Below, one piece after another: positions 17,715-44,103 of a DNA stretch of 64,000 nt. A model generated the notes under the pieces. The model was not told the DNA's origin and ran no database searches. It worked only from the letters and a program-made list of their open reading frames with translations. The first letter of the stretch is position 1. Each line of letters begins with the position of its first letter. Origin of the DNA: Faecalibacter macacae (GTDB lineage Bacteria; Bacteroidota; Bacteroidia; Flavobacteriales; Weeksellaceae); NCBI RefSeq assembly GCF_003687725.1, contig NZ_RDOJ01000006.1, positions 62,001-126,000 on the forward strand, in the 5' to 3' direction. The position numbers were made by a program, and so were the translations under genes.

Positions 17715-17827
17715 GTGATAATAAGCCATAAAAACATTACTTTAATAATTTATATTACGTTTTTAATAAACATATAGATTATAATATATTTAAATAAAGA
17801 AAATAATTTATACATTTACTTTATTCG

Positions 17828-17955
17828 TATGGTGTATAAAGTATCACTAAGGGAATCGTGTGAAATTCACGAACTGTCGCGCAACTGTAAATAGACAAAA
17901 GTCTAAAGTCAGATACCTTAACGAAATAAAACTGTAATTCCGCGGGATGATTTAT
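17828..17955 (+). promoter_or_regulatory. Cobalamin riboswitch
   Basis: The leader contains the conserved core of the B12 riboswitch in order: AAGGGAA (17849-17855), GTGTGAAATTCAC (17858-17870), AACTGTCGCGCAACTGTAA (17871-17889), then AAAGTCAGATACC (17905-17917), the counterpart of the conserved GCCAGGAGACC box. CCGCGGG near 17940 may close the outer stem. It ends about 80 bases before the first gene of the cob unit. Adenosylcobalamin or a related cobamide is expected to reduce expression of 18035-20972. No strong intrinsic terminator is visible before the start codon, which favours control of translation initiation. Confidence 0.9.
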
Positions 17956-40116: not shown

Positions 40117-43100
40117 ATGTCTGAACTATCAAAAGAAGTAAAGCAAGAGAAATTTGTGCATCCAGTACAAGAAATTTATCAGCCACAAAATAAAGTAAGA
40201 ATTGTTACTGCAGCCGCGTTATTCGACGGACACGATGCAGCAATTAATATTATGCGCAGAATCATTCAGTCTACAGGATGTGAAGTAATACACTTAGGTC
40301 ATGATAAATCTGTAGAAGATGTTGTAAATACTGCAATTCAGGAAGATGCAAATGCTATTGCTGTTAGTTCTTACCAAGGTGGTCATAACGAATACTTTAA
40401 ATACATGTACGACCTTTTACAAGAAAAAGGTGCCGGACATATTAAAATTTTTGGTGGAGGCGGAGGTGTAATCCTTCCAGAAGAAATTAAAGATTTAATG
40501 GATTATGGTATTACACGTTTATATTCACCAGATGACGGACGTGCCATGGGATTACAAGGTATGATTAACGATAAAGTAACTAAAGCCGATTTCCCAACAC
40601 CAGATTTAAAACTTCCAGAAGGTAAAACCATTTACCAATCTCTATTAGATAAAGATGTTACAACGGTTGCTCGTTTAATTTCGTTAGCCGAAAATAGAGA
40701 ACATGAATTTGAAAAACTTTTCGATTACGATAAAGTAGAAGATAAATCTACACCAGTTTTAGGAATTACAGGAACAGGTGGAGCCGGAAAATCATCGATG
40801 GTAGACGAGTTAGTTCGTCGTTTCTTAATCGATTTCCCAGAAAAAACAATCGCTTTAGTTTCTGTCGATCCTTCTAAAAAGAAAACCGGAGGTGCTTTAT
40901 TAGGAGATCGTATTCGTATGAACTCGATTAACAATCCACGCGTTTATATGCGTTCGTTAGCTACGCGTCAATCCAATTTAGCTTTATCTAAATATGTAGA
41001 TCAGGCTATTCAGGTTTTAAAAGCAGCGAAATACGATTTAATTATTTTAGAAACTTCAGGAATTGGTCAATCGGATACCGAAATTTTAGACCATTCAGAT
41101 GCTTCGTTATACATCATGACACCAGAGTTTGGTGCCGCTACGCAATTAGAAAAAATTGATATGTTAGATTTTGCTGACATTGTAGCGATCAACAAATTCG
41201 ATAAGCGTGGCGCTTTAGATGCCATTCGCGATGTAAAAAAACAATACCAACGCAACCACAACCTTTGGGATGAAAACCCAGATACCATGCCAGTTTTTGG
41301 AACAATTGCTTCGCAGTTTAACGATCCAGGAACAAACCAATTGTACAAAGCAATTATGGATAAAGTGGTTGAGAAAACGGGAGCTGATTTAAAATCGACT
41401 TTCGAAATTACCAAAGAAATGTCTGAAAAGATATTTGTTATACCAGCAAACAGAACACGTTATTTATCTGAAATTGCTGAAAACAATCGTGGGTATGATG
41501 CCAAAGCTGTAGCTCAAAAAGAAGTAGCGCAAAAGTTATATGGTTTCTTTAAAACAATAGAAACAGTTTCTGGTAAACAACCAAAACTAGCTACACACGG
41601 AATCGAAATTGTTGGAACAGAAAATGCCGATTTAACAAAAGTGCTTTTAGCTGAGTTCGACAAATTAAAAATGAATTTAGATCCTTTTAACTGGGAAGTA
41701 ATTACAACCTGGGACGAAAAGGTAAATAAATATAAAAATCCGGTATATTCGTTTAAAGTACGCGATAAAGAAATCAAGATTCAAACGCATTCCGAATCTC
41801 TTTCTCACTTACAAATACCAAAAGTTTCGTTACCAAAATACGAAGCTTGGGGCGATATTTTACGTTGGGTTTTACAAGAAAATGTTCCGGGCGAATTCCC
41901 TTTCACGTCTGGTTTATATCCATTCAAACGTGAGGGCGAAGATCCAACACGTATGTTTGCTGGAGAAGGTGGACCAGAGCGTACCAACCGTCGTTTCCAC
42001 TACGTATCTAAAGGTATGCCTGCTAAACGTTTATCAACAGCGTTCGACTCGGTAACTTTATACGGTAACGATCCAGGGCACCGTCCGGATATTTACGGAA
42101 AAATTGGTAATGCCGGAGTTTCTATTTGTTGTTTAGACGATGCGAAAAAACTATATTCTGGTTTCAATTTAGCACATGCAATGACATCGGTTTCTATGAC
42201 CATTAATGGTCCAGCACCTATGTTGTTAGGTTTCTTTATGAACGCAGCTATCGATCAGCAATGTGAAATTTACATCAAAGAAAACGGTTTAGAAGCAGAA
42301 GTAGAAGCGAAGATTGCAGCTATTTATAAACAAAAAGGTGCAGAGCGTCCGCGTTATAATGGCGAATTGCCAGAAGGAAACGATGGTTTAGGATTGATGC
42401 TTTTAGGTGTTACCGGAGATCAAGTTTTACCAGCAGACGTTTATGCCGAAATCAAGAAAAATACCTTAGCGCAAGTTCGTGGAACAGTTCAGGCAGATAT
42501 TTTAAAAGAAGATCAGGCACAAAATACGTGTATTTTCTCTACCGAATTTGCTTTACGTTTAATGGGCGACGTGCAAGAATATTTTATCGAGAAAAATGTT
42601 CGTAATTTCTATTCGGTTTCTATTTCAGGATACCACATTGCTGAGGCTGGTGCAAATCCGGTAACGCAATTGGCATTTACATTGGCAAATGGATTTACTT
42701 ACGTAGAGTACTATTTATCTCGCGGAATGGATATTAACGCATTCGGACCAAACTTATCATTCTTTTTCTCGAATGGTATCGATCCAGAATATTCAGTAAT
42801 TGGACGTGTAGCTCGTAAAATTTGGGCAAAAGCCTTAAAAAATAAATACGGAGCAAACGAGCGTGCGCAAATGTTGAAATATCACATTCAAACATCAGGT
42901 CGTTCGTTACACGCACAAGAAATTGATTTCAACGATATCCGTACCACATTACAAGCCTTATACGCTATTTACGACAACTGTAACTCGTTACACACCAATG
43001 CGTATGATGAGGCCATTACAACACCTACCGAAGAGTCAGTTCGTAGAGCTATGGCAATTCAGTTAATCATCAACAAAGAATTAGGTTTAGCTAAAAACGA

Positions 43101-43578
43101 AAATCCAATTCAAGGTTCGTTCATTATCGAAGAATTAACGGATTTAGTAGAAGAAGCTGTTCTTGCCGAATTCGATCGTATTACAGAACGTGGAGGTGTT
43201 TTAGGAGCTATGGAAACCATGTACCAACGTTCAAAAATTCAAGAAGAATCGTTGTATTACGAAACCTTAAAACACGACGGAACCTTCCCAATTATTGGGG
43301 TTAACACGTTCTTAAGTTCTAAAGGATCGCCAACGGTAATTCCAGCCGAAGTAATTCGTGCGACAGAAGAGGAAAAGCAATTCCAAATCAAAACAAAAGA
43401 CAGTCAAAATGCGCGCAACGAAAACGAAGTTGCCCAAGCGTTAGAAAAAGTGCAAACCGCAGCCATAAACAACAAAAACATTTTCGAGGTGTTAATGGAT
43501 GCATCTAAAGTTTGTACTTTAGGTCAAATTACATCGGCATTGTTCGAAGTAGGAGGTCAGTACCGCCGCAATATGTAA
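40117..43578 (+). CDS. icmF: Fused B12-dependent acyl-CoA mutase (IcmF type)
   Basis: This 1153-residue single chain has the IcmF order. The N-terminal B12-binding domain ([17 protein letters not shown] with the cobalt-ligand His39, then FGGGGGV) spans about 25-160. A MeaB-like GTPase chaperone has its P-loop GTGGAGKS at 219-226. The mutase TIM barrel runs from about 590 ([19 protein letters not shown]) to the end. IcmF interconverts isobutyryl-CoA and butyryl-CoA and sometimes pivalyl/isovaleryl-CoA. Methylmalonyl-CoA mutase normally uses a separate chaperone and an opposite domain order, so the layout favours IcmF. Substrate-pocket residues were not assigned, so specificity stays open. Codon use is slightly more GC-rich than neighbours. 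It is a likely consumer of the cobamide made by the cob genes at 18-21 kb. Confidence 0.92.
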
Positions 43579-43600
43579 ACGCATTTTTAGTATAAAAACA

Positions 43601-43632
43601 AAAACGTATCTGTTAATTCAGATACGTTTTTT
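43601..43632 (+). terminator. Terminator of icmF
   Basis: AAAACGTATCTG (43601-43612) pairs perfectly with CAGATACGTTTT (43619-43630) around TTAATT, with more T following. It begins 23 bases after the icmF stop. Confidence 0.88.
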
Positions 43633-43652: not shown

Positions 43653-43731
43653 GGGCGTTCCCTTCGGTCGGGCTTTACGCTATATCTTTGGTTCGTTCCT
43701 CACCAAAGGATGCCGCTGCAATCCCTAACGC
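43653..43731. repeat. GC-rich folded intergenic element (REP/interspersed repeat type)
   Basis: These 79 bases are much more GC-rich than their surroundings. They begin GGGCGTT and end AACGC, which can pair as an outer stem. Inside are CCC-TTCGGTC-GGG, CTTTGGT with ACCAAAG around a ten-base loop, and GGATGCCGCTGCAATCC, partly self-complementary. This multi-hairpin design and wording (CCCTTCGGTCGGG, TGCCGCTGCAATCCCTAACGC) I recognise as a family scattered between genes in Flavobacteriia. Only one copy was noticed in this window. Function is not known. Confidence 0.65.
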
Positions 43732-43742
43732 TGAATTATAAT

Positions 43743-44049
43743 TTAGCCAATAGATAATCCGTTTTTATATAAATATAATCCTAACAATAAGATTATTATA
43801 GTTTCTATTATCCAGACAGGTTTAGGATTAAATTTTATACTTTTCAAAATTAATTGTTCTAATCCTAAAACTATCCCTACAATAATAAATCCGATTAAGG
43901 TAATAACTCCTCCTAAAGCCATACCTCCATTATTGTTTATGAAGATAAAATTTAAAGCTAAAATGAGTTGAATTAATTCAAGAATTCCGAAAACAATAAA
44001 AAAGGCGTGATTTTCATTGGTATTGAGATTATTTATTAAATATAACCAT
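43743..44049 (-). pseudogene. Frameshifted small membrane-protein gene
   Basis: Read on the minus strand, an ATG at 44049 gives MVIFNK and stops. The overlapping frame, read down to a stop at 43743-43745, encodes about 95 residues with three hydrophobic segments: HAFFIVFGILELIQLILALN, GVITLIGFIIVGIVLGLEQL and VWIIETIIILLLGLYLY. This frame has no ATG, GTG or TTG before GGMALGG in the middle. A single-base shift near the start would restore one protein of ~100 residues with good membrane topology. No family is recognised. Either a small membrane protein was lost, or the call at one base is wrong; it could also start at the internal ATG. Confidence 0.45.
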
Positions 44050-44103
44050 TATTGTAAACGAATAATCATTTAAAGTTTTTATCACTAAATTCTCAATATA
44101 GCT

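Follow-up and report, generated by a model that had tools for sequence, protein, structure and literature searches.

Relatives of a Flavo-1 element behind icmF in Faecalibacter macacae suggest a foldable chromosomal DNA repeat rather than an RNA gene

Introduction

Among the closest described systems to the element treated here are the REP and REPIN sequences with their RAYT (REP-associated Tyr-transposase). In the parts of the REP literature used for comparison (PMC3733652, PMC2817692 and, beside them, PMC12306157), these repeats resemble Flavo-1 in being intergenic, palindromic and multi-copy, in showing compensatory stem changes and in having copy numbers that are very uneven between relatives. 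According to the same excerpts, REPs measure 20-40 nt, whereas Flavo-1 copies have ~70-140 nt, lack a GTAG or CGTC tag and an adjoining RAYT, and possess stems that are very variable within one genome. The CGTC-tagged REPs, which occur in Bacteroidetes among others, have no dedicated transposase known in the sections of PMC3733652 consulted and are like Flavo-1 in this respect, but they consist of a simple 8-9 bp stem plus the CGTC tag, whereas Flavo-1 is a longer, interrupted and untagged hairpin.

Flavo-1 was described as a motif in 2010 (Weinberg 2010, PMC2864571) and is catalogued in Rfam as RF01705. As far as the extracts of that description go, its core is the same as in the copies studied here: a stem P1, two 3x3 internal loops, an upper stem and a variable loop. 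Its Rfam type is 'Gene; sRNA', and an excerpt of PMC9029176 lists it as one of the annotated sRNA families with the highest abundance; it is also mentioned in PMC3765529 and PMC7682815. Within the portions of the literature covered, including papers on REPs, MITEs and palindromic repeats, we found neither an established function, in keeping with an earlier note on this DNA, nor any treatment of Flavo-1 as a DNA repeat.

Results and discussion

A Flavo-1 copy downstream of icmF

The window, i.e., the whole stretch of 64,000 nucleotides analysed from contig NZ_RDOJ01000006.1, contains a Flavo-1 copy of 79 nt at positions 43653-43731 on the minus strand (5' end at 43731). Cmscan matched RF01705 at 43736-43662 on the minus strand with 48.1 bits (E 2.8e-07), which exceeds the family's gathering cut-off of 42 bits; the ends of the element were set beyond this match, out to the outer stem seen in the copies of the genus. 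The sequence behind icmF is a single copy of a dispersed repeat, Flavo-1, already catalogued in Rfam. Its GC content of 0.557 exceeds that of both the window (0.314) and the flanks (0.23-0.36), and equally GC-rich 79-nt windows make up a fraction of 1.6e-5 of all. The earlier note, made from the letters alone, had located the element exactly, had remarked that it is far richer in GC than its surroundings and had named the upstream gene as icmF, which the match to NF045497 confirms. The features of the region are as follows.

40117..43578, plus strand: icmF, fused isobutyryl-CoA mutase/GTPase (NCBIfam NF045497, 1746 bits)
43600..43631, both strands scored: terminator-like hairpin of 13 bp with T tail, between icmF and the element
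43653..43731, minus strand: Flavo-1 element, genus variant (RF01705 match plus extension by genus copies)
43655..43659, minus strand: outer stem P0, 3' arm AACGC (partner 43727-43731)
43661..43667, minus strand: mini-hairpin CC-GAA-GG between P1 and P0 (from the sequence and genus copies)
43670..43672, minus strand: P1 3' arm CCC (partner GGG 43723-43725)
43684..43711, minus strand: upper arm, 'type 2' stem, ATC-C-TTTGGT (43711-43702), loop, ACCAAA-GAT (43692-43684)
43717..43719, minus strand: internal loop 1, GCA facing GTA at 43678-43676 (GNA/GNA in 95/105 aligned matches)
43723..43725, minus strand: P1 5' arm GGG (partner CCC 43670-43672; CCG/CGG or CTG/CAG in other genera)
43727..43731, minus strand: outer stem P0, 5' arm GCGTT (partner 43655-43659; 5/5 pairs in 58/61 genus copies)
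43743..43922, minus strand: 59-aa ORF without NCBIfam match, which stops ~12 nt short of the element

On the plus strand the element starts with GGGCGTT from 43653 and runs to AACGC at 43731. Read 5' to 3' on the minus strand, it consists of GCGTT, A, GGG, A, TT, GCA, GC, GGC, ATC, C, TTTGGT and a 9-nt loop, followed by ACCAAA, GAT, ATA, GC, GTA, AA, G, CCC, GA, CC-GAA-GG, G, AACGC, CC. The complementary ends GCGTT/AACGC pair as had been claimed, and the outer stem formed by them encloses two parts, a long interrupted arm and the small hairpin CC-GAA-GG, so that the "at least two more hairpins" of the earlier note hold once the relatives are used. The folding energy of the single window sequence was no better than that of shuffles (z -0.09 on the plus and -0.71 on the minus strand), and the structural claim therefore relies on comparative evidence and not on energy. 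Compared with RF01705, the genus variant has a GGG/CCC version of P1 and two additions that the Rfam model lacks, an outer stem of 5 bp and a mini-hairpin of the GNA kind; in the genus copies this mini-hairpin, placed between P1 and the outer stem, has mostly GNA triloops. Two types of upper stem, GGAAATCC/GATTG and GGCATCC/GATAY, are distinguished by the loss of a single base pair, one base from each arm. The window copy belongs to the GGCATCC/GATAY type, unlike the other copies viewed in its own genome. The variable loop of two of these, L005 and L009, holds another repeated word, CTTCGACAAGCTCAGT.

The element lies ~75 nt past the icmF stop codon (43578), a place that would suit a stabiliser or terminator of the icmF transcript. 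We regard such a role as extremely improbable. The 13-bp terminator-like hairpin with its T tail precedes the element, which argues against an icmF stabiliser, and no such element was present in the stretch inspected downstream of icmF in 13 of 13 sister species. From this absence it follows that the element was either gained in the lineage of the window or lost in the others; the flanks in the 13 sister species are too different to give a clean empty site at this place. G007, for example, has icmF beside an M28 peptidase gene without the element, and is too diverged for boundaries to be drawn. Most likely, the copy behind icmF is a passenger of a spreading process and has no role in icmF expression. 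The 59-aa ORF on the other side has an open frame upstream of its ATG (window 43743-44060, minus strand) with no other start before an in-frame stop, and may be what is left of a gene for a longer membrane protein. The sole other Rfam match in the window is a cobalamin riboswitch at 17811-17937 on the plus strand (37 bits); icmF encodes a B12-dependent enzyme.

Copies within and beyond the genus

The genome of the window (G000) has 12 Flavo-1 matches, 11 of them above the cut-off, and altogether 56 of the 99 genomes searched (own included) carry the family, with none detected in the remaining 43. The further copies and the spread through Flavobacteriia that the earlier note had proposed were thus found, but as a catalogued family. 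Within the genus, 13 genomes have 4-22 copies, whereas the sister species G004 has at least 150 (all 150 of the candidates that were scored), and the 30 of these that were viewed are very diverse in sequence. Outside the genus, the single-contig genome G021 (genus g9) holds 97 copies and G049 at least 42. Two exact patterns, run without a positive control against a viral contig collection, and searches of phage and plasmid records gave no match. Flavo-1 is multi-copy, intergenic (outside ORFs of at least 100 aa in 105 of 108 cases), present on either strand, vertically kept at many sites and amplified in a lineage-specific manner. With 12, 97 and at least 150 copies in G000, G021 and G004 it compares with REPs in abundance and placement; in its ends, GCGTT...AACGCC in the window copy, no terminal GTAG or CGTC tag as in the 20-40 bp REP palindromes was present among the copies viewed.

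In G010, 6 of the 12 Flavo-1 copies (L041, L143, L145, L147, L151, L153) lie just past the 5S rRNA gene of rRNA operons, on the same strand and in near-identical surroundings; L006 in G000 shows the same arrangement.

Compensatory changes in the stems

In an alignment of 29 sequences from several genera, 96.3% of the cells were paired, and 101 cells had changed on both sides, compared with 25.9 in shuffled alignments and 12-18 when the partners were slid by 1-3 columns. A larger alignment of 104 distinct rows, fitted to the covariance model, gave 96.7% paired cells and 436 double-changed cells versus 127.6 in shuffles; 6 + 2 weak matches (reverse-strand or chance) are kept in these 104 rows as well as in the counts of 2792 cells and 105 matches. 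The earlier note had asked whether base changes keep the pairing, and they do. Versions of P1 include CCG/CGG and CTG/CAG, with GGG/CCC in the window's genus, and one pair above P1 occurs as T-A, A-T or G-C. The outer stem is complementary at 5/5 positions in 58 of 61 genus copies (30 of the 61 from G004) in 14 sequence versions, whereas stems swapped between copies reached 5/5 in 0.4%; the search takes the best of 14 registers, and the swapped null was allowed the same freedom. With double changes in excess over both the shuffled and the slid controls, the Flavo-1 copies are constrained to a single folded architecture by compensatory changes, nearly all of them Watson-Crick.

Integron attC sites likewise conserve structure while their sequence varies and have a variable terminal loop, together with conserved AAC/GTT crossover boxes. 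Flavo-1 differs from them in lacking such boxes, in an outer stem that is free to vary and in not having been seen in cassette arrays; because of the varying outer stem, an identity with attC was dropped.

The short inverted ends of 5 bp and the lineage-specific high copy number could also belong to an ordinary MITE of a DDE insertion sequence. Transposases of that kind recognise inverted ends of constant sequence, whereas those of Flavo-1 vary (the 14 versions above) and the inner arms co-vary, too. No parent insertion sequence was seen in a search that covered Y1 transposases. This explanation is very improbable in our judgement.

DNA fold or RNA fold

Wobble pairs are scarce in the stems. 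The outer stem has one G-T and one A-C among 305 cells, and the stems of the model have 41 G-T and 14 A-C among 2792 cells, whereas the acceptor stems of tRNAs in the same sequences, a small control of 13 tRNAs, have 11 G-T and no A-C among 91 cells. This scarcity favours a fold of DNA, while the excess of G-T over A-C (41 vs 14) leans towards RNA on this strand; as the two pull in opposite ways, the wobble argument is not decisive. Motifs of the GNA type can be stable in DNA and RNA alike.

A structured RNA, either an independent sRNA or a UTR element whose transcribed copies bind a protein or RNase, is the first alternative to be weighed. The strong covariation, the purine-rich GNA/GNA internal loops and the G-T excess are in its favour, and some 5' regions of F. 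psychrophilum coincide with Flavo-1 matches in the parts of PMC9723704 available. A further argument for RNA comes from the pdxA-ribE site, where Flavo-1 lies just upstream of ribE and on the ribE strand in 18 of 78 loci, among them 17/17 of those whose RibE is at least 83% identical and 1/61 others. Apart from this site, neither strand nor place is constant relative to a gene that might be regulated in cis. After one of 107 copies had been dropped for an undecided strand, the downstream gene was on the same strand in 56 and on the opposite strand in 50 of the 106 copies placed. This even split and the intergenic placement agree with the extracts of the PMC9723704 transcriptome, in which Flavo-1 matches lie indistinctly in sense or antisense and many are outside transcribed regions. 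The very few wobble pairs and the diversity of the viewed copies among the at least 150 of G004 also speak against an RNA, and neither an own promoter nor an own terminator of the window copy was demonstrated. Taken together, we place the structured RNA on the unlikely side, and despite the Rfam type the evidence speaks more for a DNA repeat than for an sRNA gene.

The placement of the copies bears on another alternative, a chromosome-organising DNA site of the BIME type that binds gyrase, nucleoid proteins or SMC and is selected between transcription units instead of being selfish. Perfect hairpins of at least 8 bp, i.e., terminator-like, occur within ~100 nt of 30/108 copies compared with 28/440 intergenic control points, and the spacing of the 150 matches listed for G004, which has at least that many, is more even than random (CV 0.80 vs 0.99). 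The lack of copies in the viral contigs, phages and plasmids searched and the positions that are stable between species fit such a site as well. However, the range of copy numbers in a single genus (4 to at least 150), the 43 of 99 genomes with none detected, and convergent and divergent neighbours that are equally common (21 and 22 among 106) do not, which makes this explanation distinctly unlikely.

Insertion into single-stranded DNA would lead one to expect an orientation bias along the replichores. In G021, the strand of the element follows the replichores (71/97, permutation p 0.0008), flipping at ~0.75 and 2.73 Mb, and the sampled GC skew changes sign close to these positions. The bias was absent in four other genomes (G038, p 0.18; G039, p 0.97; G044, p 0.41; G004, p 0.40), and as it is clear in G021 only, it was dropped as a general property.

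Stable sites with exchanged interiors

Positions are largely kept between related genomes. G010 and G013, whose icmF genes are 96.9% identical over 1500 nt, have 5 of the 6 non-rrn sites of G010 in common. The flank of L161 is absent from G013. Between G021 and G049, 10 of 13 compared sites are common to both (a fourteenth, L204, was left out of the comparison); at two of the remaining three the element is absent (L200/L227, L205/L231), and one has no synteny. Neither a clean empty site nor a target duplication was obtained from these, the flanks at L200/L227 and L205/L231 being diverged, and an rrn-linked site of G004 without the element has no clean boundary.

At 5 of the 10 sites common to G021 and G049 the copies differ in their interior, with the same ends and flanks on either side. 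The whole interior is exchanged at L203/L211, L207/L209, L213/L228 and L215/L230, and the loop at L216/L226; some of the exchanged interiors are equal to those of other copies in the same genomes. Similarly, the 18-row tree of the pdxA-ribE site shows four switches of the upper-stem type. At the rsmA-idi site, 21 loci of genus g9 were viewed, with Flavo-1 within 330 nt in 13 and within the locus in 16. The exchange of interiors could be explained by gene conversion between copies or by re-insertion at the same place. A bolder reading is that Flavo-1 is a self-folding chromosomal DNA element and not an RNA gene family, in which a process acting on single-stranded DNA, perhaps at replication forks, overwrites interiors in place, keeps the ends and the site, and drove the burst to at least 150 diverse copies in one species; we consider it tentative and unlikely.

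At two sites (loci L317, L245, L321 and L322), the 3' end of Flavo-1 is replaced or directly adjoined by another short repeat of hairpin-like form, whose last letters are AGCTCC or AGCTCT. Judging from the coordinates, L491 of G004 and L152/L155 of G010/G013 occupy the same intergenic place with Flavo-1 seemingly in opposite orientation.

Mobilisation and the preferred reading

Y1 transposases (PF01797) matched in 45 of the 99 genomes. The earlier note had suggested looking for a REP-associated Tyr-transposase; none of 20 RAYT-like loci, which were drawn from the weaker Y1 matches with the strong IS200-type matches left out, had Flavo-1 within ~1.5 kb, and no RAYT gene flanked by copies was seen among them. 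Copy number does not track the presence of Y1, as G049, G002 and G011 carry Flavo-1 and have no Y1 match. On both grounds the link to RAYT was rejected.

The relatives suggest that Flavo-1 is a foldable DNA repeat that multiplies within chromosomes, rather than an RNA gene. Of the three options offered by the earlier note, which is partly supported as a whole, the non-autonomous DNA repeat fits best, and the transcript stabiliser became unlikely for icmF with the terminator in between. Our preferred reading, to which we give a probability of roughly 50%, is that of a REP-like repeat that acts or spreads as folded single-stranded DNA with an enzyme provided in trans. The relevant folded form would be DNA, either as a cruciform or as the single strand that becomes accessible during replication. 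The enzyme would recognise the fold and would have placed copies at further sites between genes, and the same enzyme may have exchanged the interiors of resident copies. Flavo-1 would then work like a non-autonomous repeat of the REP/REPIN type, although neither its sequence nor a linked transposase would make it a REP. Counting against the DNA repeat are the mobiliser that was not found, the absence of a clean empty site or target duplication among the sites compared, the stable positions, the lack of copies in the viral contig, phage and plasmid searches, the excess of G-T over A-C, and a replichore bias that is clear in one genome and absent in four. If the DNA-repeat reading is true, annotations of Flavo-1 as sRNA are misleading, and hairpins that stay Watson-Crick while diverging and exchange their interiors at fixed sites would point to a new DNA-handling enzyme in Flavobacteriia.

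As a separate observation, partial DnaA-like matches of equal score occur at six places in G004, in 248-aa frames that contain one stop; they may represent an insertion sequence's helper ATPase.
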